From assembly GCF_010122465.1 (NCBI RefSeq), contig NZ_WLZY01000001.1:372001-436000 (forward strand): a stretch of 64,000 nt of DNA, given 5' to 3'. Made by a program: the position numbers and the translations under genes. Below the pieces are notes generated by a model, which made no database searches, was not told the DNA's origin, and saw only the letters and a program-made list of their open reading frames with translations. This stretch comes from Phytoactinopolyspora mesophila. GTDB lineage: Bacteria > Actinomycetota > Actinomycetes > Jiangellales > Jiangellaceae. Positions 4,798-20,736 of this stretch are shown piece by piece. Within the stretch, counting starts at the first letter, position 1; each line of letters begins with the position of its first letter.

Positions 4798-5529
4798 TCA
4801 GGCGGCGCGTTCGGTGACGAAGACGAACTCGCGGCCTGGGCGATCCGGGGCGTCCCGCACGTCGCGAACGCGGAAGCCACTAGCCGTCAGGGCCGATTCG
4901 ACCTCGTCGCGGTCGCGGAACCGGAGAGTGGAATCAGAGGTGAGTACAGTGCCGTCGGCGTGGAATCGGTAGGTGCAGCGGAAGGACACGAGGGGGAGGC
5001 TGACATCGGTGATCTCGAAGTGCTCCTCCACATCTCCTATCCCGGGAACGTCGACGGTGACGGGAGCGGATCGGTCGGTCGCCCACTTCTCCCATGCGCG
5101 GTATTCGGGGCGCCGGGTCTCGAACACGAAGAATCCGTGTGGGCGCAAGGCGGCGCTGATGCCGCGCAGCGTCGCCGACCAGTCGTCGTCAGTGAGAAAG
5201 ACTTGGGCGACATTGCCGGTCATCACGGCGAGGTCGGCGCCCAGGGCTGGTGCCGACGTTGCGTCGCCATGCAGCCAGGTGACCCGTTCGGCGCCCTTCT
5301 TCGACCTGGCGACATCGAGTGACGCGGCTGCCGGATCCACCCCGACGACGGTCCGGCCGGTGCCGGCCAGCAGTATCGCCAGCGATCCCGTGCCGCAGCC
5401 GACATCGAGTACCTGGCGGGCGTTCAGCTCTTCGGCGATGCCCAGGTAGGTCTCGAGATCGTCGCGCGGCCCGTCGAAGGCGTCGTAGATGGCCGCAAGG
5501 CGTGGGTGGGCGAATATTTCGTCCGGCAT
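4798..5529 (-). CDS. Class I SAM-dependent methyltransferase
   Basis: 243 residues. Motif I is VLDVGCGTGSLAILLA (about residues 40-55) followed by VVGVDPAAASLDVAR, which binds the adenosyl ribose, and HGDATSAPALGADLAVMTGNVAQV for motif II. The N-terminus (FAHPRLAAIYDAFDG) is typical of a small free-standing actinobacterial methyltransferase family acting on unknown small molecules. It converges on the marR gene, 13 bases apart, and is divergent from the DUF222/HNH gene. The acceptor cannot be deduced. Confidence 0.9.
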   Translation of the reverse strand: MPDEIFAHPRLAAIYDAFDGPRDDLETYLGIAEELNARQVLDVGCGTGSLAILLAGTGRTVVGVDPAAASLDVARSKKGAERVTWLHGDATSAPALGADLAVMTGNVAQVFLTDDDWSATLRGISAALRPHGFFVFETRRPEYRAWEKWATDRSAPVTVDVPGIGDVEEHFEITDVSLPLVSFRCTYRFHADGTVLTSDSTLRFRDRDEVESALTASGFRVRDVRDAPDRPGREFVFVTERAA

Positions 5530-5726
5530 CCGGCGACACTATCGACTTGGCGCTCGTGGTGCGACGGGTTTTCGTCTCCGCGTGGTCGTCGCCACGGCAC
5601 GCTGGCCGGCCTGCTCAACGGTCGGTGCAGCGGCGGCGCGGACTCCGGGCGCGCGGGACGACCTGATGCCGCGACGCGGGGATGCGCCAATTCGATCCGG
5701 AAGTTGCGGCAAAGCTGGTAAAACAA

Positions 5727-5761
5727 TTGAAGCGGAACTGACGTTCGATTATCTTGTAGGT
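5727..5761 (+). promoter_or_regulatory. Promoter of the DUF222/HNH gene (probably leaderless)
   Basis: TTGAAG (5727-5732) and TATCTT (5750-5755) are separated by exactly 17 bases. Transcription starting about seven bases after the -10 box would begin at the ATG at 5762, and no Shine-Dalgarno box precedes that ATG, so translation is probably leaderless. Confidence 0.6.
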
Positions 5762-7657
5762 ATGAGTGATTCGCATGGCAACCTCGCCGTCCCGGATGGG
5801 CCCGAGCCCGCGGGTGGTGTTGATGCGTGCGATGTCGACGCGGAATGGGTGCGGTTGGTAGCTGCCGAGCTGGCCCGGTCGGAGCCGATCGCTGGGTCGC
5901 TGGCTGACGTGGCCGATGGTGAGGACGTTTTCGGAGACCTTGGCTTCGATGTGCTTCACCCGGATGCCGGGCCGGATGGACTGGAGACCGATGATCCAGG
6001 CGCCGACGAATCAGGTCCCAATTGTCCAGGTCCCAATTGTTCAGGTCCCAATTGTTCAGGTCCCAACGTTTCAGATCCCAACGTTTCAGATCCCAATGGC
6101 CCAGGTCTCGATGATCCAGACACCTTGAATGAACTCGGTCGCCCGGGCGGGCCGGTTCCGGGAGTGGACCGGTCCGGAGTCGCGGGAATGGCGCCCGGCA
6201 CTCGCCTGGCGGCAATTCTCGATGCTGTCTCGCCCGGGGAACTCGGTGTGCGTGAGTTGGCTGATGTGGTGGCAGCGTGGGAGCGGATGATGGCCTGGTG
6301 TGCGGCGAAGCAAGCTGAGGCGGCCGCCGAATTGACTCACCGCCGCGAGTTGCGCCCGGATGACGGGGGCGGTCAGTTCGCGTCGTTGCATCCGGTCCCG
6401 GCTACTGCCGCGGCGCTGTGTGCCGTGCGGCCGTGGACCAAGCCGCAGGCTGAGAAGCTGGTGGACCAGTCGGTTGTACTGGTTGAGAAGTACCCCGCGG
6501 TGCACCAGGCGTTGTTCGAGGGACGGCTCGACGTGGCCAAGGCTCGTATCTTGACCCGCGCCCTGGCCAAGTGTGACTCCGAGGTAGCGGAGCTGATCGA
6601 GAAAGCTGTGTTGCCGTTTGTACATATCTGGACCGAGGTGAAGCTGTCCCGCGTGGTCAACGAGTTGTTGCATGAGCTTGACGCCGCGGGAGCCAAACGC
6701 CGCCGCCGCGAGGCTCGTGACCGCCGCGACGTGTGGCTTGAGCCTGGTGAGGATGGCATGGCCTGGCTGATTGCCTATCTGCCGGCGGAAGAAGCCACCG
6801 CGGTGATGGCCGCGATCAACGCCGCCGCTGAGTCCGAGGGCGCAGCCAGGGGCGCCGGCCAAGATTCGGCACGGCCTGCCGACGGTGCTACTTCCGACGG
6901 TGCTACTTCCGACGGTGCCGCTTCCGACGGTGCCACGGGTGGTTCGCGCACCCGGCAGGGCCCGGGCACCAAGGGGCAGCGGCGCGCGGATGCGCTCGCA
7001 TCACTCGGCTGGCTGTCGTTGGCTGCTGGACACCTCGGCGGCCGCGAATGCACGGCCTGTGGTGTGCCGGCGGGTACCCGGTTGTCCAAGGCTCATGGTC
7101 GCCCGGTCACGGTGAACGTCACGGTGCCCATGTCCACGCTGCTGGGCTTGGACGAGCATCCTGCTTATCTGGATGGGTATGGTCCTATCGACCCTGATGT
7201 GGCGCGGTGTCTGGCAGCCGCTGGTGTGTGGACGTGGGTCGGGACGGCTCCTGCTGGTGGCCACGCGATCGATTACGGCACCACTCGCTATGAGCCCCCG
7301 CAAGCTTTGGTGGACTTCGTGATTCTGCGTGATCGTGAATGTCTGATGCCAGGTTGCCACCGCCCAGCTCAGCGCTGCGAGATCGATCACCGTCGCCCCT
7401 GGCCGTACGGACCGACCTCAGCCTGCAACTGCTCGGCCTTGTGTAAGGCCTGTCATGTGCAAAAACATCGGGCCGGGTGGACGGTCGAGCATCTCGGTGA
7501 GGGGCGGCAGCGCTGGACAAGCCCCACCGGACACTCATCGGTGATCAGTTTTCCGCGCATCGCTCCAGACGCGTGGGAAGGAGCTACATCACGTCGCGAT
7601 CGAGGGTATGAGTCCGCGAAGGCGCCACCGGCCGGATCGGGCGACCCACCCTTCTGA
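5762..7657 (+). CDS. DUF222 / HNH endonuclease signature protein (13E12-like repeat family)
   Basis: 631 residues. The central part, about 150-400, is the actinobacterial DUF222 domain (13E12 family). The C-terminal HNH motif reads CLMPGCHRPAQRCEIDHRRP, then CNCSALCKACHVQKHR, holding the metal-binding cysteines and the catalytic His of the IDH triplet. Family members occur in many copies in actinomycete genomes; an activity in DNA cleavage is predicted but poorly proven. The N-terminal 80-120 residues carry six five-residue repeats rich in Pro and Asn, and a second low-complexity run of D-G-A-T/A-S units lies around residues 374-393; both come from 15-bp tandem repeats. Position 7655-7657, its stop, lies in the loop of a hairpin. 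Confidence 0.88.
   Translation: MSDSHGNLAVPDGPEPAGGVDACDVDAEWVRLVAAELARSEPIAGSLADVADGEDVFGDLGFDVLHPDAGPDGLETDDPGADESGPNCPGPNCSGPNCSGPNVSDPNVSDPNGPGLDDPDTLNELGRPGGPVPGVDRSGVAGMAPGTRLAAILDAVSPGELGVRELADVVAAWERMMAWCAAKQAEAAAELTHRRELRPDDGGGQFASLHPVPATAAALCAVRPWTKPQAEKLVDQSVVLVEKYPAVHQALFEGRLDVAKARILTRALAKCDSEVAELIEKAVLPFVHIWTEVKLSRVVNELLHELDAAGAKRRRREARDRRDVWLEPGEDGMAWLIAYLPAEEATAVMAAINAAAESEGAARGAGQDSARPADGATSDGATSDGAASDGATGGSRTRQGPGTKGQRRADALASLGWLSLAAGHLGGRECTACGVPAGTRLSKAHGRPVTVNVTVPMSTLLGLDEHPAYLDGYGPIDPDVARCLAAAGVWTWVGTAPAGGHAIDYGTTRYEPPQALVDFVILRDRECLMPGCHRPAQRCEIDHRRPWPYGPTSACNCSALCKACHVQKHRAGWTVEHLGEGRQRWTSPTGHSSVISFPRIAPDAWEGATSRRDRGYESAKAPPAGSGDPPF
6011..6100 (+). repeat. 15-bp tandem repeat inside the DUF222 gene (6 units)
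   Basis: Six consecutive 15-base units of the form TCAGGTCCCAATTGT, the last three drifting to AACGTT/AATGGC endings. They encode repeated Ser/Pro-Gly/Asp-Pro-Asn-X. The unit keeps the frame, so copy number can change without inactivating the gene. Confidence 0.85.
6881..6940 (+). repeat. Second 15-bp tandem repeat in the DUF222 gene (4 units)
   Basis: Four in-frame copies of GACGGTGCTACTTCC (the last two diverged), coding D-G-A-T/A-S and forming a probable flexible linker between the DUF222 region and the HNH domain. Confidence 0.8.
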
Positions 7658-7729: not shown

Positions 7730-8989
7730 TTAGGCGTGTCCCGTGGCCGCCGCGCGTCGACGAGACAGCGCATCAACCGCCGCCGCCAGGAGCAGCACAA
7801 GTGCGGTGACGATGAACTGCACCGAGGAAGCCGACGTGATCAGTGGCAGCCCATTGGCGATGGTGGCGACGACCAAGCCGCCGAGCACCGCATCGCGCAC
7901 CTTGCCTTTGCCGCCGAACAACGACGCGCCACCGATGACGGCGGCCCCGACCGCGAGCAGGAGGGTGATCGAGCCACCAGTGGAGGGCGAGATGGAATTG
8001 TCGCGAGAGGCGAACAGGACGCCGGCACTGGCCGCCATCGTCGAACAGATGATGAAACAGATGACCTTGACGCGGCCCACGTTGATACCCGCCCGGCGGG
8101 CGGCCTCGACGCTGCCCCCGATGGCGTAGATATGCCGGCCGAACGCGGTCCGGGACAACACGAACGTCAGGCCGACCAGAATCACCGTGGTGATCGGCAC
8201 GATGTAAGGCATGCCCTTCAAGGACGTGAGCTCCGGGTTCACACTGCGTTCCTGGTTGAGCAAGTGGGTGCCGACGCCGGCCAGCACGGCGAACGCGCCG
8301 ATCTTGAATCCGAGGATCGACGGTGGTTGCACCGGAAGCCCGCGGCGTTTCCGCTTGCGCGCACCGCTGAGTGTCACAGCCGCGTAGCCGCTGACGACGA
8401 GGATGGTGAACACCCATCCCAACGCCGGCGCCACGTTGCTCTTCATGATTGACAAGATCGTGTCACTGCGCACCGGGATGGTTCCGCCCTCGCCGATCAC
8501 CCACAGCATCATCCCCTGGAGCCCGAGGAAGTAGGCCAAGGTGACGACGAATGACGGGACCCCGAGCCGGGAGACGATCAAGCCGATGGTGAGCCCGATC
8601 ACGGCTCCGGCCAGGAGGCAGGCAGCGAGAGCGAGCGGCCAGGCAACGCCGTGGTGGGTCATCAGGACGGCGAGGACCGCACCGGAGGCACCAGCGGCGA
8701 CCCCCGCGGACAGATCGATCTCCCCAAGGAGGAGAACGAAGACCAAGCCCATGGCGATGAAGATGATCGCCGCGCTCTGGTTGAGCAGATTGGCGAAGTT
8801 CAGCAAGGACGCGAAGCGATTGGGGTTCATCGCGGTGAAGAACACCATCAGCGACAAGAGCCCGAGAATCGCGGGCAGCGCACCGACCTCGCCGCCTCGC
8901 ACCCGGGAGAAGTAGCCACGCAGAGAGCTCCGGATCGAGGTCTGCTCGACAGGGACCTCGCTGGCCTCGAGAACCGATGTCTTGGTCAC
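7730..8989 (-). CDS. Sugar ABC transporter permease (xylose/ribose-type, CUT2/BPD_transp_2)
   Basis: 419 residues with about ten membrane helices. The diagnostic segments of the CUT2 permeases are present: GEIDLSAGVAAGASGAV, RLGVPSFVVTLA, the cytoplasmic coupling segment AIGGSVEAARRAGINV, and ATIANGLPL near the C-terminus. It starts with GTG at 8989, overlapping the ATPase stop by four bases, so the two are translationally coupled. With the ATPase and lipoprotein upstream it should form a type-I importer for a pentose-like sugar. Its closest visible relative in the window is the permease at 16879-18009. Confidence 0.92.
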   Translation of the reverse strand: MTKTSVLEASEVPVEQTSIRSSLRGYFSRVRGGEVGALPAILGLLSLMVFFTAMNPNRFASLLNFANLLNQSAAIIFIAMGLVFVLLLGEIDLSAGVAAGASGAVLAVLMTHHGVAWPLALAACLLAGAVIGLTIGLIVSRLGVPSFVVTLAYFLGLQGMMLWVIGEGGTIPVRSDTILSIMKSNVAPALGWVFTILVVSGYAAVTLSGARKRKRRGLPVQPPSILGFKIGAFAVLAGVGTHLLNQERSVNPELTSLKGMPYIVPITTVILVGLTFVLSRTAFGRHIYAIGGSVEAARRAGINVGRVKVICFIICSTMAASAGVLFASRDNSISPSTGGSITLLLAVGAAVIGGASLFGGKGKVRDAVLGGLVVATIANGLPLITSASSVQFIVTALVLLLAAAVDALSRRRAAATGHA

Positions 8990-9762
8990 GCCGCCACTTC
9001 CTTCGCCGGTAGGCCGAGGTTGCCACTGCGTCCCGCGGTGATGAGCTCGACGATTTGTGCATGCGTGACGTCAGCGGCGGGGATCTGGGCGGCCATCTGA
9101 CCGAGGTACAGAGTCGCGATCCGATCCGCGACTTCGAAGACGTCGATCATGTTGTGCGAGATGAAGATGACAGCCAGCCCGCGGGTCGCGAGCCCTCGGA
9201 CCAGGTTCAGCACCTGTTCGGTCTGTGCCACCCCCAGTGCGGCCGTGGGCTCGTCCAGAATGACGACCTTGCTGTTCCATAACACGGCGCGGGCGATCGC
9301 CACCGTCTGCCGCTGGCCACCTGACAAGCTGGCAACCGACATCCGCACCGACGGGAGCGTCCGCACCGACAGGCCGCGCAATGTCTCGACGGCCTTCTGC
9401 TCCATCGTGGTCTCGTCGAGCGCCACCCTGGAACGTAGCTCGCGACCGAGGAACATGTTGTGCACGACGTCGAGGTTGTCGCACAGCGCCAGGTCCTGGT
9501 AGACGACCTCGATGCCCAGCGCGTTCGCGTCCTTCGGGTTGTGGACGCTGACCTCGCGACCCTCGAAACTGTAGGAGCCGGTGTCGAAGGGCTGGCTTCC
9601 CGAGATCCCCTTGATCAGGGTCGACTTGCCGGCGCCGTTGTCTCCGACGAGCGCCAGCACCTCTCCCGCATAGACGTCGAGCTCCACATCCTTGAGGACA
9701 TGGACCGCTCCGAAACTCTTGTTGATGCCGCGCAGCGTCAGCACGGGCTGCTTCTCTGTCAT
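8986..9762 (-). CDS. Sugar ABC transporter ATP-binding protein
   Basis: 258 residues, a single ABC domain. Walker A GDNGAGKST is at residues 40-48, the Q-loop in VVYQDLALCDNLDVV, the signature LSGGQRQ around 146-152, Walker B VVILDEPTAALG and the switch His in VIFISHNM. Classical XylG/RbsA proteins carry two ABC domains in one chain; here a single domain must dimerise, as in FrcA-like systems. It follows the lipoprotein gene after a strong hairpin and overlaps the permease gene by four bases. Compare the ABC part of the kinase fusion at 12533, which has the same layout. Confidence 0.93.
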   Translation of the reverse strand: MTEKQPVLTLRGINKSFGAVHVLKDVELDVYAGEVLALVGDNGAGKSTLIKGISGSQPFDTGSYSFEGREVSVHNPKDANALGIEVVYQDLALCDNLDVVHNMFLGRELRSRVALDETTMEQKAVETLRGLSVRTLPSVRMSVASLSGGQRQTVAIARAVLWNSKVVILDEPTAALGVAQTEQVLNLVRGLATRGLAVIFISHNMIDVFEVADRIATLYLGQMAAQIPAADVTHAQIVELITAGRSGNLGLPAKEVAA

Positions 9763-9790
9763 TGCACCTCGTTCAGCTCGAATGTCGGCG

Positions 9791-9841
9791 TGATCATCGG
9801 CATTCTCCGCCCATGGGCGAGACGGAGAATGCCGATGATCA
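9791..9841. terminator. 19-bp perfect hairpin between binding-protein and ATPase genes
   Basis: TGATCATCGGCATTCTCCG (9791-9809) pairs perfectly with 9823-9841 around a 13-base loop containing CCCATGGG. It lies 20 bases after the lipoprotein stop and before the ATPase start. Such stem-loops in importer operons protect or terminate the upstream mRNA so that the binding protein is made in excess; that role is inferred here. Confidence 0.75.
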
Positions 9842-9860
9842 CAGAGGGAGCGCTCGGCTA

Positions 9861-10997
9861 CTACTCGACGCCGTACTCCTCACAGGCCGCCTGGAGCTCC
9901 TCGGTGGTGCAGAGCTTCTCCGCGGTCGTGAAGCCGTCGGCCACGACGTCCTTCACGGTGTCCGCGAAGATCGGCTGTGGGGTCAGCAGGACCGAGGCGA
10001 CGTCCTCGCCGGTCTCGGTGTCCTCCACGGTGGCATCGGCGAGGGCGTCGGCTGCCTCCCGATCACCGTGGGCGAGCGCTACCGCCAGCTCGACGGCCGC
10101 CTCGGCCTCGGCTTTGACCGCCTTGTAGACGGTCACGCACTGCGTTCCGAGCAGGACCCGCTGGAGGCCTTCGTCGGTGGCGTCCTGACCGGTCACCGGG
10201 ATCGATCCGGCCAGTCCGTTGCGGTCGAGCACGGAGATCACCGCTCCGCCCAGACCGTCGTTGGCAGCTGCGACTCCGACGAACTCGCCACCTGTTCCGG
10301 TGAAGATCTGCTCGAACATGGTGCCGGCTTCGGTGTTGTCCCAATCAGGTACCGACTGGTCGTCGGCGATGCCGTAGCCCGCGCCGGTGACCGCGGCTTC
10401 GTAACCCTCCTTGAACAAGGTCGCGTTGTTGTCCGTAGGAGACCCGTTGAGCAGAACCACGTCACCGTCGGTGACACCGTCCTCCTGCAGACAGGTCACC
10501 AGGCCTTCGCCGATCGCGGTGCCGACAGCGACGTTGTCGAACGACACGTAGTACTCCGCGCCACCACCGAGGGTGAGCCGGTCGTAGTCGATGACCGGGA
10601 TGCCGGCCGAAGCAGCGTTGCTGATGACCGCGCTGCCGGTCTCGCTGTCGAGGTTGACGATGAGCAGCACGTCGTAGCCGGCGCTGATCATTCCGTCGGC
10701 GATGGTCTGGAAGTTGCTGGTCTCGCCCTCGGCATTCTGAATGTCCGCCTCGACGCCGGCGGCGTCGAAGGCCTCTTGGAGCAGGGGCCGGTCGGCAGTC
10801 TCCCAGCGTGCAGACGAAGCCGAATCGGGAAGGATCACACCGACCGTGGCAGCTCCCTCTTCGGTCGTATCGTTGCTGGTCGACTCCGAGTCGTTCTCAG
10901 CGTTGCCATCGTCGGTGCCGCAGGCGGCCAAGGTCAGCCCGGCGGCGATGCTGGCCGCTAGCGCGGTGCGCGCGACGCGGCGAGACGAGATGTTCAC
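9861..10997 (-). CDS. Sugar ABC transporter substrate-binding lipoprotein (XylF/ChvE-type)
   Basis: 378 residues. The start is GTG 10997, six bases after GGGAGGA. A lipoprotein signal ends with LTLAAC, making Cys26 the lipidated residue, followed by an acidic Ser/Thr-rich linker. The rest is a two-lobed periplasmic-binding domain of the galactose/ribose/xylose class: VGVILPDSASSARWE, GYDVLLIVNLDSETG, GIPVIDYDRL, VLLNGSPTDNNATLF and VTGQDATDEGLQRVL. The YDR and GQDA segments match sugar-contact loops of XylF-like proteins, so a pentose is the best guess. First gene after the ROK repressor. Confidence 0.93.
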   Translation of the reverse strand: MNISSRRVARTALAASIAAGLTLAACGTDDGNAENDSESTSNDTTEEGAATVGVILPDSASSARWETADRPLLQEAFDAAGVEADIQNAEGETSNFQTIADGMISAGYDVLLIVNLDSETGSAVISNAASAGIPVIDYDRLTLGGGAEYYVSFDNVAVGTAIGEGLVTCLQEDGVTDGDVVLLNGSPTDNNATLFKEGYEAAVTGAGYGIADDQSVPDWDNTEAGTMFEQIFTGTGGEFVGVAAANDGLGGAVISVLDRNGLAGSIPVTGQDATDEGLQRVLLGTQCVTVYKAVKAEAEAAVELAVALAHGDREAADALADATVEDTETGEDVASVLLTPQPIFADTVKDVVADGFTTAEKLCTTEELQAACEEYGVE

Positions 10998-11130
10998 AAG
11001 TGTCCTCCCGGATCAGAGCTACGAGGTACCACGTCTGTTGCGTGGCCATGAGTCTGAGCGCGGGTCCGGTTGGCGTCAAGCCTCAAACGCAATGCCGTTT
11101 ACATCTTGTTAATGGATTCTTTTCATGCCA

Positions 11131-12291
11131 TCAATCTGGCGAGCGGGCGCCAATCAGGCCTGCGAGGAGCGCGCCTACCGCCACCGTGCGTTCTCCTAGC
11201 GGCGAGAGCATGAGGTGCGTCGTGCTGGCGACTCCGGGCAGGACCGCGCGGCGAAACCCTCGCCGGACGGGTTGGAGCCAGGCATCGCCGGCGGCCGTCA
11301 ACGGCCCGCCGAGGGCGATCTCGGCTGGGTTGAGGATCATCGCGAGCCAGCCGAGTGCGCGGCCGAGCGTCTCTCCAGCCTCCTCGAGAATATGCAAGGC
11401 AACGGGGTTGTCCGCGCTCAGAAGGTCGAGCACGTCCTGGAGGACGAGATCGCGCTCGAGCGCCGTGCCCAACGCGGACCGGATCGATTCAGCTGAACTG
11501 ACCGTCTCCACGCAGCCACGGCGTCCGCAGCGGCACACGATCGCCAGCCGAGGGTCAAGCGTGAGATGGCCGATCTCTCCCGCCGCCCCGGAGTGGCCGC
11601 GCAGGAGCTGGCCGTCCACCGCGACCCCAGCGCCGATTCCCTGCGCGACCTTGACGAACACCACTGCTCCCTGCCGCTCGGGGTGGCTGCCCAGAGCGAT
11701 CGCACCGAGGTTGGCGTCGTTCTCGACAACTACCGGACGGCCGAAGGTTCGATGGAGCTCATCCTGCAGGGGGACGTCCACCCACGCGGGGTGGATCGCC
11801 GCTTCCGTCACCGCTCCGGTTGAGGTGTCCACCGGCGCCGGGATTCCCATCGCGATACCCGAGATGTGGTGTTGCTCGATGCCCGTGTCCGCGCGGACGG
11901 CGTCGACCAGCGGGCCGATCGTGTCGAGCGCGGCCTGCGGGTTGTGCCATGCGGGCAGCTCAGTGGCTCGTTCGGCCAGGACGTCACCAGCGTCGGTTCC
12001 CACGACCACCCGCACGTGTGTCCGGCCGGCGTCGATGCCTATCCCGTACCGGCGACGCCGGGGTGAGCGTTTGACCATCCGGCTGCGCCGGCCGTTGGAG
12101 ACACCCTTGGTGACGACGAGTTCGCCTTCACTGCTCAGGGTGCGGACCAGCCCGGACACCGTGGCGGCCGACAAGCCAGTCATGCGGGCCAGTTCGGCCT
12201 GACTTATCTCGCCTCCGTCTTGGAGCGCCTCGAGTAGGCGCTGCCGGTTGGCAAGCCGCAACCCGGACAGCGATCCAGGGCCGGATTCCAC
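11131..12291 (-). CDS. ROK family transcriptional repressor
   Basis: 386 residues from a GTG start. Residues 14-60 form a MarR-like winged helix (EISQAELARMTGLSAATVSGLV). Residues 83-380 form the ROK sugar-kinase fold: YGIGIDAGRTHVRVVVG for the phosphate loop, END192 for the catalytic aspartate, GAAGEIGH with the sugar-binding Glu and His, and the zinc motif CRCGRRGCVE at 253-262. Retained sugar and zinc residues suggest it still senses a sugar, as XylR and NagC do. It precedes the importer genes on the same strand and is divergent from the ABC-kinase fusion, so it may control both. Confidence 0.92.
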   Translation of the reverse strand: MESGPGSLSGLRLANRQRLLEALQDGGEISQAELARMTGLSAATVSGLVRTLSSEGELVVTKGVSNGRRSRMVKRSPRRRRYGIGIDAGRTHVRVVVGTDAGDVLAERATELPAWHNPQAALDTIGPLVDAVRADTGIEQHHISGIAMGIPAPVDTSTGAVTEAAIHPAWVDVPLQDELHRTFGRPVVVENDANLGAIALGSHPERQGAVVFVKVAQGIGAGVAVDGQLLRGHSGAAGEIGHLTLDPRLAIVCRCGRRGCVETVSSAESIRSALGTALERDLVLQDVLDLLSADNPVALHILEEAGETLGRALGWLAMILNPAEIALGGPLTAAGDAWLQPVRRGFRRAVLPGVASTTHLMLSPLGERTVAVGALLAGLIGARSPD

Positions 12292-12532: not shown

Positions 12533-15079
12533 ATGAGGACCAGCCGAGCGCATCGCACGGCGCGAGCCGCGACTGCGCTGACGTCTGGCACCCATGACGT
12601 AGCCGGCCCCCGCTTGCCGGGGGATGATGCGGGCGTGGCCGGCGTCGGCGACCGTCCTCACCCTGAGGTCCGGCTCTCGATGAGAGAAGTGACCAAGTGG
12701 TACGGGCGGCTCCGGGCCCTTGATCAGATAACTCTGAGCGTCCACCACGGGGAGATCGTCGCCGTAGTCGGCGAGAACGGAGCCGGCAAATCAACCCTGG
12801 TCAGCTGCATCGCCGGGTACGCGCAGATCGACGGAGGCCGCATCGACATCCGGCCCGCCCGGGAGCGTGCCGGTACGGCGCCACCGCAGATCGCGGTGAC
12901 CTGGCAGGACCTGGGTCTGTGTGAAGACCTCGATGTGGTCGCCAACATCTTCCTGGGCCGGGAGCACACGCGCGGGCTGCTGGCCGAGAACCGGATGGCC
13001 ACCGATGCGCGCAACGCTCTCGACCGCTTCGGGTCACAGCTCAGCGATGTGCGGGCACGCGTCGACACGCTGTCCCGCGGCGAACGTCAAGAGGTCGCGC
13101 TCGCTCGTGCCATCGCGACCGAGGCGGAACTGCTCGTGCTCGACGAACCCACCGCGTCGCTGAGTGCCATGCGGCGCGCCGCCGTCGTGGAGTTGCTCCG
13201 GGAGCTTCGTGATGCCGGCCAGGCGATCCTTCTGGTCAGCCATGATCTCGAGGAGGTCTTCTTACTCGCCGACCGGATTCTGGTGTTGCGCCATGGCCGG
13301 ATCGTCGCGACCGTGTCGCCCGCTGAGGTCCACGTCGACGACGTCGCCGCACTGATGTCCGGCATCGAATCGGAGTCCACCGCGCGCCGTCAGCTCAACA
13401 GGCTCAAGAGCCTGGTCGAGCAGCTTTCGGCGGCCGACCCGGCCGCGTCACTCCCGCTCGTCGTCTCGGCGACAGCGGCCGCCCTCGACCAGGACATGTT
13501 GTGTGTGCATTTGCTCGAGCCGACCCCTGGCGGCACCGTGCTGCGGCGCACCGCAGCTATCGGCTTACCCGATCCACTGGTTGAGGTCACCCTCGAGGTG
13601 GCTCCAGGTAGCGCCGGAGGTTTGATCGGCACGGCGGCCGCCACGGGGCAGCTCGTCGTGGTGGATGACGCCAGCGACGACCCAGCCTGGTCCGGGTTCT
13701 TTCAGCTGGCAACGGCTGCCGGCGTCCGGAGTGGGTGGTCCACACCTATCATCGGGTCGACCGGTGTCCTTGGCACCATCACCGGTTTCAGCACCTCCGC
13801 GGGCCGTCTCGACCCGGACCGAGCCGAGCTGGTGTCCTTGTACGCCGGCCATGCCGCGACGGCGATCGAGCGCGAGCAACTGATCGATGAGGTGAGCCGG
13901 AGAAACGAGATACTCGAGTCCCTACGAGCCATGCTCGAGTCGCTCGCGGGACCGGACCGGGTTGACGGCGGATTGTCAGTTGCACTGCTGGCGCTGTGCC
14001 GGGGACTAGGGGCGTCGGCCGTGGGCGTCCTGGTCGCTGGTGTCCCAGAGGTTGGGGGAGCGGAGCCATCGTGGGTGGAGATCGACCTCGACGGCGCGTC
14101 CGCTGATCGCCTGCGCGAACTCGCGGAACAGGCCGCGAGTTCCGCTTCAGATGCGCAGCGCCTGAGCGATGGGCTGGCCGTCGCTGGGTTGCCGCTCCCC
14201 GAGGGGCAGGGCATCCTGATCAGCCAGTGGGCCGATCAGGCTGAGCCAGGTCGCGACCGACTCGAGCTGCTCGACGACGCCAGGCGGTCGCTCGCTCTGG
14301 CGCTGGAGCGCGAGGGCCTCGAGCGGGCGCGCCGCGAGGCCACGGCAGCGCGGCGGTCCCAACATCTCCAGCGCGAGCTGCTGCAACAGCTCAGCCACGA
14401 GCTGCGCACGCCGCTCACCGCGATCCGTGGATACGGTTCGACCCTCCTGCAGCCGGACCTCACCTGGGACGCCGCGTCCGTCGAGCGGTTCCTCACCGCG
14501 ATCACCACGGAGTCCGCGCGGATGGAGCGGCTGGTCGATGATCTACTCGACTCCTCCGCGATCGAATCCGGGGTGCTGAGTCTTCGTCGTGACTGGACCG
14601 ACTTGCGCCTCGTGCTGGAGGCCGCGCGGAGCTGCGTCCCGGACCGGGACCGGATCCGGATCCGGGCCGCGGATGACCTCGAACCCATCTGGGCCGATCA
14701 TGATCGCCTCGAGCAGGTCTTCGTCAACCTGCTGGAGAACGCCGTCCGCCACGGCGATCCCCACGGTGAGGTTCGTGTCACGGCGGCTCGAGGCGTCGCC
14801 AGCGCCACCATGGAGGTGTTGATCAGCGACGATGGTGACGGCGTTCCGCCGGACGTCGTCGACCGTCTCTTCGAGCCGCGGGTGCGGCACAAGGAGAGCA
14901 CCGGCGCCGGGCTCGGATTGTCCATCGCCCGTGGCATCACCGAGGCCCATGGCGGCAGTTGCGAGCTGCTACCCGGGTCGCCCACGACGTTCCGCGTCAC
15001 TGTGCCCATCGAGCCGGTCGACTTCGATCCTGTTGAACGTCCGTCCGCGGATGCCCCGGGAGTATCACGTCATGGATGA
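12533..15079 (+). CDS. ABC transporter ATPase fused to GAF domains and a histidine kinase
   Basis: 848 residues from ATG 12533, five bases after GGAG; a start 17 codons upstream lacks a box. Residues about 46-280 are a sugar-importer ABC domain: Walker A GENGAGKST (80-88), Q-loop WQDLGLCEDLDVV, a degenerate signature LSRGERQ (180-186), Walker B LLVLDEPTAS and switch His in LVSHDLEEV. Residues about 300-450 are a GAF domain, about 480-590 a second GAF-like region. HisKA follows with LSHELRTPLTAIRGYG (His622), then HATPase_c with N-box VNLLENAVRHG, G1 SDDGDG and G2 GAGLGLS. No membrane helix or signal peptide is seen. The response regulator gene overlaps by eight bases and binding protein and permease genes follow, so the protein probably powers the importer and signals at the same time. 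Confidence 0.93.
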   Translation: MRTSRAHRTARAATALTSGTHDVAGPRLPGDDAGVAGVGDRPHPEVRLSMREVTKWYGRLRALDQITLSVHHGEIVAVVGENGAGKSTLVSCIAGYAQIDGGRIDIRPARERAGTAPPQIAVTWQDLGLCEDLDVVANIFLGREHTRGLLAENRMATDARNALDRFGSQLSDVRARVDTLSRGERQEVALARAIATEAELLVLDEPTASLSAMRRAAVVELLRELRDAGQAILLVSHDLEEVFLLADRILVLRHGRIVATVSPAEVHVDDVAALMSGIESESTARRQLNRLKSLVEQLSAADPAASLPLVVSATAAALDQDMLCVHLLEPTPGGTVLRRTAAIGLPDPLVEVTLEVAPGSAGGLIGTAAATGQLVVVDDASDDPAWSGFFQLATAAGVRSGWSTPIIGSTGVLGTITGFSTSAGRLDPDRAELVSLYAGHAATAIEREQLIDEVSRRNEILESLRAMLESLAGPDRVDGGLSVALLALCRGLGASAVGVLVAGVPEVGGAEPSWVEIDLDGASADRLRELAEQAASSASDAQRLSDGLAVAGLPLPEGQGILISQWADQAEPGRDRLELLDDARRSLALALEREGLERARREATAARRSQHLQRELLQQLSHELRTPLTAIRGYGSTLLQPDLTWDAASVERFLTAITTESARMERLVDDLLDSSAIESGVLSLRRDWTDLRLVLEAARSCVPDRDRIRIRAADDLEPIWADHDRLEQVFVNLLENAVRHGDPHGEVRVTAARGVASATMEVLISDDGDGVPPDVVDRLFEPRVRHKESTGAGLGLSIARGITEAHGGSCELLPGSPTTFRVTVPIEPVDFDPVERPSADAPGVSRHG

Positions 15080-15773
15080 CCGGACCGGGATTCTCATCGT
15101 CGAGGACGACCGCAACATCGTGGATCTGCTGCGCTCGAATCTCCTCGCGCGCGGGCACCGCGTCATGGTCTCGCGCGACGGCGCCGATGTGATCACGCAG
15201 CTGGGGGAATCCGCGCCGGACCTCGTGCTGCTGGATCTCATGTTGCCCAAGCTGGATGGGTTCGAGCTGTGCCGGTCGATCCGCGAACGCTCCGACGTGG
15301 GGATCGTCGTGCTTTCGGCGCGTCGGGGCGAGACGGACAAGGTGCGTGCCCTCAATCTCGGCGCGGATGACTACTTGACGAAGCCCTTTGGCATCGATGA
15401 GCTGCTCGCCCGGATCCACGCGACGCTGCGCCGATCCCGGCCGGCGCCACGGGGCAGCTCGGCCATGTCCGTCATCGAAGTGGGTGATGTCCGGATCGAC
15501 TTCGACGCGCAGTCGGTCTCGAAGGCCGGCGAGCATGTGCATCTCACGCCCACGGAATACGCTCTGCTGCACGAGCTGGCGACCAACCAGGGACGGCTGC
15601 TGTCGCACGCGGAGCTGTTGCGTCGGGTGTGGGGGAGCGGCTACGAAACCCAGACCGAGTACACCCGGGTCTATATCGCCCGGCTGCGCGCCAAACTCGA
15701 GACAGCGGGCGGCCCAGACCTCATCGTGACCGAGCCACGGGCGGGTTATCGGTTTGCCGCGGTGCGGCAATGA
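15072..15773 (+). CDS. OmpR/PhoB-family response regulator
   Basis: 233 residues. The receiver domain (1-120) has the acidic pocket E11-D12-D13, the phospho-acceptor Asp55 in LVLLDLMLPKLDG, the Ser/Thr switch in VVLSARRGETDK and Lys104 in YLTKPFG. The C-terminal winged helix (about 135-230) contains LTPTEYALLHELATNQGRLLSHAELL and the recognition helix TRVYIARLRAKLE, ending with the typical GYRF wing. ATG 15072 lies inside the kinase gene's end, giving an eight-base overlap, and its stop overlaps the lipoprotein start. It is the evident partner of the fused kinase; its targets may include the two importer operons. Confidence 0.95.
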   Translation: MDDRTGILIVEDDRNIVDLLRSNLLARGHRVMVSRDGADVITQLGESAPDLVLLDLMLPKLDGFELCRSIRERSDVGIVVLSARRGETDKVRALNLGADDYLTKPFGIDELLARIHATLRRSRPAPRGSSAMSVIEVGDVRIDFDAQSVSKAGEHVHLTPTEYALLHELATNQGRLLSHAELLRRVWGSGYETQTEYTRVYIARLRAKLETAGGPDLIVTEPRAGYRFAAVRQ

Positions 15774-16882
15774 TCCGCGCCGGGGCCGTGATCATTGCCG
15801 CGATCGTGGCGCTGGGACTGGCCGGATGCGGCCTCGACGACGACGGCGGGGCCGCCGCGACGTACCGGATCGCGTTTCTGTTACCCGAGAGCAAGACCGC
15901 ACGGTACGAGTCGCACGATCACCCGGCGTTCGTCGAGCGGGTCCACGAACTCTGCCCCGAATGCGAGACCCTGGTCAGCAATGCCGGTCAGGACGCCGCG
16001 CGGCAACAAGCCCAAGCGGAGGCAGCCATAACCAACGGTGCCGACGTGCTGGTCCTCGACCCGGTCGACTCGGCTGCCGCCGCGGTCATCGCGCGCCATG
16101 CCGAGACAGCGGGGGTCCCGGTGATCTCCTACGACCGGCTCGTGCTCGACGCGCCGGTGGCGTTCCACGTGACCTTCGACAACGAGCAGGTTGGCGCATT
16201 GCAGGCGCAGGTCCTGGTTGATGCGGTGGCTGACCGCAGGGACGACGGGGTGCTGGTGGTGCTCAACGGCTCGCCCACCGACGACAACGCGGCGTTGTTC
16301 CGCAGCGGCGCCAGCCTCGTGCTCGACGGCAGTGACGTGAGGATCGGCGTAGAGACCGACGTCCTGGATTGGTCACCGGACAAAGCCCAAGAAGCGATGG
16401 AACGGGCACTCGCGACTCTCGGCCGCGACCGGGTCGCCGGTGTTTACGCGGCAAACGACGGGATGGCGGCCGGTGCGATCGCCGCGATGAAGGCTGCCGG
16501 CATTGATCCCCTGCCGCCGGTGACCGGGCAGGATGCCGAACTGGCGGCGGTACGGCGGGTGCTCACCGGTGAGCAGCACATGACGGTCTACAAAGCTGTG
16601 CGGACCCAGGCCAGAGTGGCAGCCGAACTCTCGATCGGCCTCGCCGAGACCGGTGAGATTCCGGCGGGCGTGCGTTCGGCGTGGGTTGACAGCGGGAACG
16701 GAATGGTCGCGGCCCTGCTGTTGGAACCGCAGGCGGTGACGCGCGAGACGATCGGATCGACGGTCGTCGCCGACGGGTTCTGGTCCATCGCAGAGATCTG
16801 CGGCGGTCTCGAGCGCGAATGCACTGAAGCCGGACTGATCGATTCACCGGCCGGGTATGACGTGAGAGTGCCGGCGCCATGA
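15770..16882 (+). CDS. Sugar-binding lipoprotein (XylF-type) of the kinase-linked importer
   Basis: 370 residues. The signal peptide ends in GLAGC, so Cys20 is lipidated. It is clearly paralogous to the lipoprotein at 9861-10997: FLLPESKTARYESHDHP matches VILPDSASSARWETADRP, and VLNGSPTDDNAALF, ISYDRL and VTGQDAELAAV match in turn. Two extra cysteines (LCPEC near residue 64) are unusual for the family and could form a disulfide. ATGA overlap with the response regulator gene and four-base overlap with the permease gene show tight coupling. In this operon it could deliver ligand for transport, for sensing, or both. Confidence 0.92.
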   Translation: MIRAGAVIIAAIVALGLAGCGLDDDGGAAATYRIAFLLPESKTARYESHDHPAFVERVHELCPECETLVSNAGQDAARQQAQAEAAITNGADVLVLDPVDSAAAAVIARHAETAGVPVISYDRLVLDAPVAFHVTFDNEQVGALQAQVLVDAVADRRDDGVLVVLNGSPTDDNAALFRSGASLVLDGSDVRIGVETDVLDWSPDKAQEAMERALATLGRDRVAGVYAANDGMAAGAIAAMKAAGIDPLPPVTGQDAELAAVRRVLTGEQHMTVYKAVRTQARVAAELSIGLAETGEIPAGVRSAWVDSGNGMVAALLLEPQAVTRETIGSTVVADGFWSIAEICGGLERECTEAGLIDSPAGYDVRVPAP

Positions 16883-18009
16883 TCCAGCTGACTCTGCTGC
16901 GCGCCGGTCGCTGGGCACCGTTCCTCGCGTTGGTCGCTGTCTGGGTGGTGATGAGCGCCCTTAATCCGCGTTTCCTGTCGGCGGTGAATCTGACCAACCT
17001 GATGCTGCAGATCGTGGCGGTCGGCACGATCGCCGTCGGTGTGGTGCTTGTCCTTCTGATCGGTGAGATCGACCTGTCAGTGGGAGCGGTGTCCGGGCTG
17101 GGCGCCGCCGTGACCGCGGTGCTTGCCATCAAGCAGGGGTGGCCCGCGCTGCTGGCCATCTGTATCGGGCTACTTGTGGGCGCTGTAGTGGGCTTGCTGC
17201 ACGGCTTGATGGTGACACGTGTCGGTGTGCCGTCGTTTGTGGTAACCCTCGCTGGGTTGCTGACGTGGCAGGGCGCTCTGCTGCTGGTCCTGGGCGACAC
17301 GGGGACGGTCAACCTCACCGACGACTCGCATCTACGAGCGATTGCCGGCACATTCCTGCCGCCTGCCTTTGGCTGGGTTCTGGCGTTCGGCGTGGCGGTG
17401 GCCGCCGTCGTGGTGGCCGGCACCCGGTCGAGGCAGGGGAGCACCGGGCGGATGTGGCTCGCCTGGCCGTGGGCCGCCGCAAGTGTGGGTGCCGTCGTTG
17501 CGGTCATGGTCTTCAACGCTGATCGCGGCGTGCCGCTCGCCGTCGTGCTGTTCCTCGTCTTGCTCGCCAGCGGAGACATAGTCATGCGGCGGACCCGGCT
17601 GGGCCGGCACGCGGTGGCGATCGGGAGCAACGCCAGCGCCGCGCGCCGTGCGGGCATCGCGGTGGACCGGGTTCGGATGGTGGTCTTCACGCTGGCATCC
17701 GTGCTGGCTGTCGCTGGTGGAATTCTTGCCGCGTCCCGGCTGCTCGCGGTCAATCAGTCGTCGGGCAGCACGGACGTGATGTTGATGGCCATCGCCGCGG
17801 CGGTGATCGGCGGCACGAGCCTGTTCGGGGGGCGCGGGTCGGTGTGGTCGGCCCTACTCGGCAGCTTGGTGGTGGGTTCGCTGGCCAACGGCCTGGATCT
17901 GCTGGGCGCCTCGCCCGCGGTCCGGCTGATAACGACGGGCCTGGTACTGGCCGTGGCCGTGGGACTGGACACTCTGATGCGCCGGGCCAAAGTGGTGCGG
18001 CCGGCGTGA
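16879..18009 (+). CDS. Sugar ABC transporter permease of the kinase-linked importer
   Basis: 376 residues with eight to ten membrane helices. CUT2 permease landmarks are present: LIGEIDLSVGAVSGLGAAV, RVGVPSFVVTLAGLL, the NBD-coupling segment AIGSNASAARRAGIAV and GSLANGLDLLG. It parallels the permease at 7730-8989 throughout, so transport is probably intact rather than lost. Since no separate ATPase gene accompanies it, its energising subunit should be the ABC part of the ABC-kinase fusion, which would also bring that otherwise soluble kinase to the membrane. Confidence 0.92.
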   Translation: MIQLTLLRAGRWAPFLALVAVWVVMSALNPRFLSAVNLTNLMLQIVAVGTIAVGVVLVLLIGEIDLSVGAVSGLGAAVTAVLAIKQGWPALLAICIGLLVGAVVGLLHGLMVTRVGVPSFVVTLAGLLTWQGALLLVLGDTGTVNLTDDSHLRAIAGTFLPPAFGWVLAFGVAVAAVVVAGTRSRQGSTGRMWLAWPWAAASVGAVVAVMVFNADRGVPLAVVLFLVLLASGDIVMRRTRLGRHAVAIGSNASAARRAGIAVDRVRMVVFTLASVLAVAGGILAASRLLAVNQSSGSTDVMLMAIAAAVIGGTSLFGGRGSVWSALLGSLVVGSLANGLDLLGASPAVRLITTGLVLAVAVGLDTLMRRAKVVRPA

Positions 18010-19048: not shown

Positions 19049-19990
19049 ATGACGAACACAGCGATTGCGGCCACCGGGCTGCGAAAGGCATTCGGGGACA
19101 AGATCGTCCTCGATGGCATAGACCTAGAAGTCGGCACGGGGACGGTGTTTTCGTTGCTCGGCCCGAACGGGGCGGGCAAGACGACGGCGGTGAACGTGCT
19201 GACCACGTTGATGAAGGCCGACGGCGGGACCATCCGCATCGCCGGGCATGATGTCGAGTCCGAGGCCAAGTCGGTGCGCGCGGCGATTGGCGTCACCGGG
19301 CAGTTCGCGGCGGTCGACGAGCTCCTGACCGGGCAGGAGAACCTGCAGCTGATGGTGGATCTGAACCGGAGCATCTCCGGCAACGGGCGGCAGATCATCA
19401 CCGAGTTGCTCGAGCGGTTCGATCTAGTGGAATCGGCGCAGAAACCCGCGTCGACCTACTCCGGCGGTATGCGCCGGAAACTGGACCTGGCCATGACGCT
19501 CGTCGGCAGCCCCCGGATCATCTTCCTGGACGAGCCGACAACGGGACTGGACCCGCGCAGCCGTCGCACGATGTGGTCCATCATCCGTGACCTGGTGTCC
19601 GGCGGTGTGACGGTATTCCTCACCACCCAGTACCTCGAGGAGGCCGACCAGCTCGCCGACCACATCGCGGTCCTCGACCAGGGCCGGTTGGTTGCCCAGG
19701 GCACGCCCGACGAGCTCAAGCGCCAAATCCCCGGGACACATGTCCGTTTCCGGTTCGCGGACGTCGCCGAGCTCGACACGGCAGCGCGGCTGCTGAGCGG
19801 CGCGACCCGAGACGACGCGGAGTTGACGTTGCGGGTGCCCAGCGATGGCGGCACGAAATCAGTGCGGGCGATGCTGGATCGCCTCGACGAGCATGAGCTC
19901 GATGCCGAGGAGTTCTCCGTCCACACGCCGGACCTCGATGACGTCTTTCTCGCCCTGACGGGCCACTCCACGGAGGTGGACGCGAAATGA
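19049..19990 (+). CDS. ABC exporter ATP-binding protein (DrrA-type)
   Basis: 313 residues. Walker A GPNGAGKTTAVNVL, Q-loop in GVTGQFAAVDELLTGQENL, signature YSGGMRRKLDLAM, Walker B IIFLDEPTTGLDPRSRR and switch His replaced by Gln-containing TTQYLEEADQLAD, which is characteristic of the daunorubicin-resistance DrrA family. The C-terminal 90 residues are the regulatory extension ending LTGH. It works with the permease gene that overlaps it by four bases to export a drug or lipid. The native substrate is not known. Confidence 0.93.
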   Translation: MTNTAIAATGLRKAFGDKIVLDGIDLEVGTGTVFSLLGPNGAGKTTAVNVLTTLMKADGGTIRIAGHDVESEAKSVRAAIGVTGQFAAVDELLTGQENLQLMVDLNRSISGNGRQIITELLERFDLVESAQKPASTYSGGMRRKLDLAMTLVGSPRIIFLDEPTTGLDPRSRRTMWSIIRDLVSGGVTVFLTTQYLEEADQLADHIAVLDQGRLVAQGTPDELKRQIPGTHVRFRFADVAELDTAARLLSGATRDDAELTLRVPSDGGTKSVRAMLDRLDEHELDAEEFSVHTPDLDDVFLALTGHSTEVDAK

Positions 19991-20736
19991 GCAACAAGCC
20001 TCAGTCGGTGGTGATGCTGAATCGCAACTTCAAACACATCACTCGGAATCCGACCTCGGTCTTCAACGCGGTCGTGATGCCCATCGTGATCCTCTTGATG
20101 TTCGTGTACATGTTCGGAGACACCTTCGACGTGGGCATCGATTACATCGACTACGCGACGCCCGGGCTGATTCTGTTGGCCATCTGCTACGGGCTGGGGG
20201 GTACCGCGACGTCGGTGAATTCCGACATGACCAAAGGCATTATCAACCGGTTCAAGGTCATGGACGTCCCCCGCAGTGCGGTGCTGACTGGTCATGTCGC
20301 AGCGAGCACGCTGATCAACGTGGTCGCCATCACCGCTCTGGTCGGGGTGGCACTGCTGATGGGATTCCGCCCGGCGGCTGGATTCCTCGAGTGGCTCGGC
20401 GTGGCCGGCATCGTCGTGTTGCTCGGTGTCGCGGCCGGCTGGTTCACGGTCGCATTGGGGTTGGCGGCGAAGTCTCCTGAAACGGCCGGTATGTCGGCCG
20501 TGCCGCTGGTCATGCTGCCGTTCTTCAGCAGCGCGATCGTACCCGCCGAGAACATGGGCCCGGGCTTGCGGCAGTTTGCGGAGTATCAGCCGTTCACACC
20601 GATCATCGAAACGATGCGCGGGCTGCTGGCCGGCGCGCCGGACACCGGCGATGCGATCACGGCCGTCGCGTGGTGCGTCGGAATCGGTCTCGTCGGCTAC
20701 CTGTGGGCAAGTTCCACGTTCAAGAAGCGAGCGTGA
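19987..20736 (+). CDS. ABC-2 type exporter permease (DrrB-type)
   Basis: 249 residues with six membrane helices of the ABC-2 fold. The N-terminal amphipathic segment (VVMLNRNFKHITRNPTSVF) and GLGGTATSVNSDMTKGIINRFKVMDVPR, the coupling region of DrrB proteins, are typical. Translation is coupled to the ATPase by an ATGA overlap. The next gene, coding a DUF4097 protein, starts 86 bases further on the same strand and is probably co-transcribed. Confidence 0.92.
   Translation: MSNKPQSVVMLNRNFKHITRNPTSVFNAVVMPIVILLMFVYMFGDTFDVGIDYIDYATPGLILLAICYGLGGTATSVNSDMTKGIINRFKVMDVPRSAVLTGHVAASTLINVVAITALVGVALLMGFRPAAGFLEWLGVAGIVVLLGVAAGWFTVALGLAAKSPETAGMSAVPLVMLPFFSSAIVPAENMGPGLRQFAEYQPFTPIIETMRGLLAGAPDTGDAITAVAWCVGIGLVGYLWASSTFKKRA

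Follow-up and report, generated by a model that had tools for sequence, protein, structure and literature searches.

A CUT2-type importer ATPase fused to a GAF-containing histidine kinase in Phytoactinopolyspora mesophila and other Actinomycetota, and its possible role as the sensor of a sugar permease

Can the ATPase of a sugar importer be the sensor of a histidine kinase, and, if so, does it still power the importer? The question is raised by a gene of Phytoactinopolyspora mesophila located in a stretch of 64,000 nucleotides (NCBI RefSeq assembly GCF_010122465.1, contig NZ_WLZY01000001.1, positions 372,001 to 436,000; hereafter the window, numbered from its first letter). In one chain, this gene encodes the nucleotide-binding domain (NBD) of an ATP-binding cassette (ABC) importer of the CUT2 class, a tandem of GAF domains and a HisKA/HATPase_c histidine kinase. 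The reading favored here, which we consider fairly probable, is that this kinase docks through its NBD on the permease of its own operon and reads the state of permease and NBD, and that in the window the NBD is probably the motor too. In this way, the cell would probably receive a sugar signal from the importer as such.

The gene lies in a single open frame on the forward strand, from 12482 to the stop codon at 15079, which runs without interruption and in which ABC_tran (94.8 bits), GAF_2 (49.7), HisKA (56.7) and HATPase_c (79.9) follow one another, all scoring above the Pfam cut-offs. An initial annotation, made from the sequence alone, had described one frame with sugar-type ABC, GAF, HisKA and HATPase_c domains and without a membrane helix; the open frame, the Pfam scores, the motifs (Table 1) and the structural matches bear out the former, and the latter also holds, since no credible membrane helix was found in the fused protein, whose most hydrophobic stretch is a helix-strand of the second GAF domain. 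The possibility of a transmembrane kinase was thus ruled out. On the other hand, the start proposed at 12533 has to be moved: the alignable region of the relatives begins at a conserved ATG, the counterpart of the GTG at 12635, so that this GTG, which has GGGGGAT upstream, is probably the start codon.

The best NCBIfam matches of the NBD are the N-terminal halves of YtfR, AraG and XylG, which places it in the CUT2 sugar-importer class. It has the Walker A, Q-loop, signature, Walker B and H-loop of this family, and is encoded with a CUT2 permease and a Peripla_BP_4 binding protein. It is single, not a tandem of approx. 500 residues; it scores far under the CUT2 equivalog cut-offs, and none of the NCBIfam models attains its cut-off on this protein. 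ATPases with a single NBD are known in the CUT2 class and, by similarity of the Q-loop, are the nearest kin of the fused NBD. The kinase part shows the H-box and the N, G1 and G2 boxes of HisKA kinases, and a gene for an OmpR-family regulator adjoins it. An AlphaFold model built from 18 relatives (mean predicted local distance difference test score, pLDDT, 77; predicted template modelling score, pTM, 0.37) comprises, numbered from base 12674, the NBD (1–230), a GAF domain (236–373), a helix (381–425) and an alpha/beta domain (431–518), after which a long helix leads into the DHp and CA domains. The first list of structural alignments was dominated by matches to the NBD, and therefore the GAF region was folded and searched separately; alone, it matches tandem-GAF structures, i.e., GAF-A/B of PDE5A and GAF-PHY of phytochromes (Foldseek E approx. 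1e-12), which indicates that two GAF domains are present.

In the host family, to which Jiangella belongs, 12 of 22 genomes have the full-length chain, with approx. 70% identity. Among the matches listed in a scan of genome contigs, it shows 42–55% identity in Streptomyces spongiae, Conexibacter sp. DBS9H8 and many metagenome-assembled genomes of actinobacteria, and it occurs in two further classes of Actinomycetota, that is, in at least three classes in total. The spread is patchy, as in a class-wide sample of 394 genomes a full-length match was obtained in just four that do not belong to the host family; no full-length copy was found on plasmids, and the full-length fusions among the matches of the contig scan all belong to Actinomycetota, the phylum beyond which sampling was limited. 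A frameshift, a missed stop codon or a mis-assembly could in principle have joined two genes, and the initial annotation had itself named a sequencing error or missed stop between the ABC and GAF parts, as well as a lack of homologues with the same fusion, as possible objections. Nothing in favor of such an artefact was found, and its probability is negligible: the same full-length chain recurs in many independent genomes of three classes, and the fusion is therefore real. A tree of 102 NBDs places all the fused domains on one side of a branch (99 in the Shimodaira–Hasegawa-like approximate likelihood ratio test, SH-aLRT), and the stand-alone and tandem NBDs on the other; the one row inside the fused clade without the fused label, L040, has a frame cut by the end of its contig. 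It follows that the fusion most simply arose once, judging from this tree, which like that of the permeases was a quick one, without bootstraps and with some long branches that are unsure. The fusion is an ancient and conserved trait of some soil actinobacteria.

In the window, the kinase is the first of four genes, followed by an OmpR/PhoB-type regulator, a sugar-binding lipoprotein (SBP2) and a CUT2 permease (PERM2), all translationally coupled by overlapping start and stop codons; the operon has no separate ATPase gene. The arrangement was compared at 34 distinct loci with readable flanks. At all of them the regulator lies directly downstream of the kinase, and a CUT2 permease follows within the next few kilobases. 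A permease of the PF02653 type thus always accompanies the fusion, a point that the initial annotation had asked to be checked; a XylF-type binding protein does so as well, at one locus (L029) by a weak match. Two layouts were distinguished. In type A, with 14 loci (the window, 11 others of its family, L159 and L178), the order is kinase, regulator, binding protein and permease, and the ATPase gene that in kindred operons is sited between the last two is absent. In type B, with the other 20 loci, there is a separate ATPase besides the fused one, and the usual order is kinase, regulator, binding protein, NBD and permease. The type A permeases form one clade (SH-aLRT 99) and most type B permeases another (99), which also contains the permease of a second CUT2 operon of the window (PERM1). 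This operon, complete and divergent, is headed by a ROK-family repressor and encodes a binding protein (SBP1) and a stand-alone ATPase (NBD1); in Jiangella, a set of ROK repressor, binding protein, NBD and permease comes after the fused cassette, and no second CUT2 set was found within the stretch read at L162, L163, L159 and L178. The stand-alone NBDs closest to the fused ones, elsewhere in genomes that bear the fusion, each belong to a set of binding protein, NBD and permease, and a pair of binding protein and permease without its own NBD is therefore an exception, which accompanies the fused NBD.

A few loci depart from these layouts. L029, in Streptomyces spongiae, is the only one where the fused kinase is followed by a tandem-NBD ATPase (RbsA-like, 550 residues) together with the weakly similar binding protein, and so the fused kinase can pair with another CUT2 subtype. 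At L027 (12699–14710) and L031 (10578–12604), a second, divergent permease and NBD lie between the regulator and the binding protein; this extra NBD, with the signature MSGGEQQ and the H-loop IMHN, sits on very long branches, and perhaps two importers are read by one kinase. At L026 (15192–17332), riboflavin genes (a lumazine-binding protein and then DHBP synthase/GTP cyclohydrolase II) come directly after the cassette, which could be due to chance or point to an unusual ligand.

Is the NBD the input of the kinase? In ABC importers, the NBD contacts the permease with the face formed by the Q-loop and the helix that follows it, and here the similarity between fused and stand-alone NBDs is 0.63–0.64 (mean 0.385), versus 0.38–0.44 with tandem NBDs. 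It is equally high in the signature region (0.68) and Walker A (0.64–0.66); outside the catalytic motifs common to ABC ATPases, the Q-loop and the next helix are the peak of similarity between fused and stand-alone domains. All type A permeases, that of L178 included, have an EAA-like coupling loop with the sequence GxNxxAARRAGIxV or one close to it, which in PERM2 reads SNASAARRAGIAVDR. The fused NBD thus keeps its docking face, and from this conservation we infer that it docks. The linker at the C-terminus of the NBD, in turn, is conserved among fused NBDs only (0.63–0.70 versus 0.44–0.50). In two proteins of Conexibacter sp. DBS9H8 (L037:28-1896 and L038:8001-9458), both GAF domains are missing and the NBD leads nearly straight into DHp; these GAF-less proteins keep the ABC domain, which makes this domain a plausible input of the kinase. 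An established precedent for such an input comes from the phosphate importer: two PstB variants, E179Q and Q160K, whose NBD is predicted to be fixed in the closed or the open state, push the output of PhoR in opposite directions in the absence of transport (PMC5775613), and by analogy it is proposed that the conformation of the fused NBD would set the output of the kinase.

Is it also the motor? The Walker lysine, the Q-loop glutamine, the catalytic glutamate and the H-loop histidine are all kept in 35 of 38 distinct fused NBDs, and the three others (L037, L038 and L178) have lost the H-loop histidine. In L037 and L038, the H-loop reads GRD or TRD while the importers beside them are intact, and L038 also lacks most of the signature (LNLGE) and the proline of Walker B; these two may be natural 'sensor-only' NBDs. 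L178, a type A fused gene on the minus strand (8152–11532), has lost the glutamine of the Q-loop (VWGDL) together with the histidine of the H-loop (TRD), while Walker A and B remain; in its genome (G759, 64% complete), this NBD is the only one of CUT2 type found at E≤1e-40. The idea of the initial annotation, that the transport motor itself is the input of the kinase, is accordingly ruled out as a general rule by the type B operons and these catalytic losses, and stands as a possibility for the window. There, as in all members of the family, the catalytic residues are intact and the operon has no other ATPase, so that hydrolysis of ATP for transport is possible and the fused NBD is likely to drive PERM2 as well. 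In the strictest form of this proposal, the only ATPase of the importer would be a histidine kinase whose output is set by the power stroke or by stalling, with no adaptor, and the cell would read import from inside the pump; this is possible, although somewhat short of an even chance.

Several observations weigh against docking and sensing through the NBD, or against the motor role. The low overall pTM means that the AlphaFold model does not give the arrangement of the domains, docking is read from the conservation of the NBD face and of the coupling loop, and in the window the GAF domains could carry the main signal. The separate ATPase of the 20 type B operons indicates that motor function is not what maintains the fusion, L178 lacks its Q- and H-loop residues within a type A operon (of an incomplete genome), and NBD1, which adjoins the cassette of the window, could power PERM2. 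The main rival to the motor role is a receptor that merely binds or cycles ATP: SBP2, PERM2 and the fused kinase would be a transporter turned receptor, whose permease moves little or no sugar; ligand-bound SBP2 would shift PERM2 together with the NBDs in their ATP-loaded form, and the kinase would activate another importer, e.g., that of the ROK-SBP1-NBD1-PERM1 operon. L178 agrees with this, as it retains the cassette and the coupling loop despite its catalytic losses, and so do the GAF-less L037 and L038, likewise without the H-loop histidine, and the complete CUT2 operon next to the cassette in the window and in Jiangella. Nevertheless, in type A the full set of catalytic residues is intact in 13 of the 14 NBDs, and L162, L163, L159 and L178 show no other CUT2 operon in the region read and hence no obvious partner; a pure receptor is judged rather unlikely.

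Two further alternatives seem improbable. According to one of them, the GAF pair would sense a cytoplasmic ligand, and the NBD would be a mere tether to the membrane complex or would control transport as the kinase dictates. The presence of two GAF domains, the first of them conserved, fits this view, to which we give little credence considering that L037 and L038 dispense with both GAFs and yet keep the NBD, kinase, regulator and importer. The other, which strikes us as decidedly weak, is that a stand-alone NBD such as NBD1 drives PERM2, and that the fused NBD docks at times, or pairs with one, reporting occupancy. ATPase sharing of the MsiK type is known in Streptomyces, both kinds of NBD coexist in type B operons, and ATPases of the NBD1 type occur elsewhere in genomes of the same genus; however, the closest stand-alone NBDs each have their own set, and none besides the fused one was found in the incomplete G759 at the threshold given above.

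Docking of the fused NBD on the permease of its operon, the reading that we prefer, suggests a scheme in which docking and what lies beyond it, i.e., the geometry of the homodimers, the direction of signalling, transport by the complex, the identity of the sugar and the genes regulated, are what we infer. The protein would be a cytoplasmic histidine kinase with a CUT2 importer NBD as its sensor; two chains would dimerise through DHp, and their NBDs would pair on the coupling loops of a PERM2 homodimer. In ABC importers, the C-termini of the NBDs point away from the membrane, and each of the two dimers has a twofold axis. SBP2 would feed PERM2 from outside and, when loaded with sugar, change PERM2 and the NBD pair, whose open or closed state, dependent on nucleotide and substrate, could pass through the conserved linker helix, the tandem-GAF rod and the signalling helix to DHp; the state of DHp would then set kinase versus phosphatase activity on the co-translated OmpR-type regulator. 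The GAF domains may add a cytoplasmic ligand signal, and the operon itself is a probable target of the regulator, with the neighboring CUT2 operon perhaps another. In type B operons, transport can be powered by the separate ATPase, and the role of the fused NBD may be limited to reading the permease.

The features of the window are collected in Table 1. A search by sequence gave no solved relative of PERM2. No regulator-binding repeats were found between the two CUT2 operons, and the upstream DNA shows no conservation. A guess of the substrate from neighboring catabolic genes was abandoned, given that the flanking genes (FtsY, SMC, Na/H exchanger, riboflavin, molybdopterin and helicase genes) are unrelated. 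A frame of 722 residues with a DUF222 domain (5489–7657) lies between the second CUT2 operon and an MFS/methyltransferase group, and a pair of ABC exporter ATPase and membrane protein, DrrAB-like by reading (19049–20736), adjoins the cassette and is apparently unrelated to it.

Table 1. Features of the fused gene, its operon and the second CUT2 operon in the window.
Feature	Position	Strand	Remarks
Fused gene: CUT2-type NBD, tandem GAF and HisKA/HATPase_c histidine kinase, 814 residues	12635..15079	+	probable start
ABC ATPase (NBD)	12674..13363	+	Walker A GENGAGKST (K52), Q-loop WQDL (Q91), signature LSRGERQ, Walker B LLVLDEP (E171), H-loop SHD (H203); numbering of the 814 residues
GAF domain 1	13379..13792	+	Pfam GAF_2
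GAF domain 2	13964..14227	+	seen by structure; no Pfam match
HisKA (DHp)	14369..14572	+	H-box LSHELRTP, phospho-acceptor His588; long signalling helix from approx. 14252 feeds in
HATPase_c catalytic domain	14696..15013	+	N, G1 and G2 boxes
OmpR/PhoB-family response regulator	15072..15773	+	8-nt overlap of its start with the kinase stop
SBP2, XylF/ChvE-type sugar-binding lipoprotein	15770..16882	+	lipobox LAGC; ATGA overlap with regulator
PERM2, CUT2 permease (BPD_transp_2, GguB/XylH-like)	16879..18009	+	EAA-like coupling loop; ATGA overlap with SBP2
ROK-family repressor	11131..12291	-	divergent; heads the second operon
SBP1, XylF-like binding protein	9861..10997	-	second operon
NBD1, stand-alone single-NBD CUT2 ATPase	8986..9762	-	second operon
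PERM1, CUT2 permease	7730..8989	-	second operon; groups with type B permeases

How does this system compare with those already known? In CUT2 importers such as XylFGH, RbsABC and GguAB-ChvE, the binding protein, permease and NBD belong to the same families, but here the NBD is single instead of tandem and carries GAF-GAF-HisKA-HATPase_c at its C-terminus. In NBDs of the MalK and MetN type, a regulatory module likewise hangs off the C-terminus, away from the permease, and the structural matches of the fused protein include MalK and MetNI; the difference is that the regulatory domain here is a kinase, and word searches of the open-access literature found no such importer NBD. CbrA unites a transporter and a kinase in one chain by fusion of a secondary-carrier membrane domain, whereas here a primary pump contributes its soluble ATPase subunit. 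Bacteriophytochrome kinases (PAS-GAF-PHY-HK) share the tandem-GAF rod that leads into HisKA/HATPase_c, with the NBD in place of their N-terminal PAS domain; kinship with phytochromes was discarded, since no PAS or PHY match was obtained with Pfam and the tandem-GAF fold alone is common to both.

The closest functional parallel is PstSCAB-PhoU-PhoR/PhoB, where the conformation of an importer NBD also controls an OmpR-type two-component pair and NBD mutants lock the output (PMC5775613). There, PstB, PhoU and the membrane-bound PhoR are separate proteins, whereas here one soluble chain serves a CUT2 sugar importer, and no PhoU-like gene was seen among the genes of the operon. BceAB-BceS/BceR is another case in which an ABC transporter and a kinase, encoded together, form one sensory unit (PMC6978683); nevertheless, in that module the kinase, BceS, is a separate protein of the intramembrane type, and BceAB, of an unrelated exporter-like family, involves neither a fusion nor a binding protein, while the fused kinase has no membrane helix and its permease is of the BPD_transp_2 type, not a BceB-type protein with a large external domain. 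That a transporter informs a kinase is therefore already known (PMC6978683, PMC5775613), and it is the joining of an importer ATPase to a kinase in one chain that is apparently new to the literature; word searches of open-access publications found no ABC ATPase-kinase fusion, an absence that is weak evidence. In Pst-PhoR and BceAB-BceS, the pump acts on the kinase through weak multi-protein complexes, which makes these systems difficult to study. With a covalent tie, the state of the ABC cycle read by the kinase could be addressed with point mutants of one soluble protein, and the two layouts, together with the natural variants without GAF domains or catalytic residues, are a ready series to separate transport from signalling.
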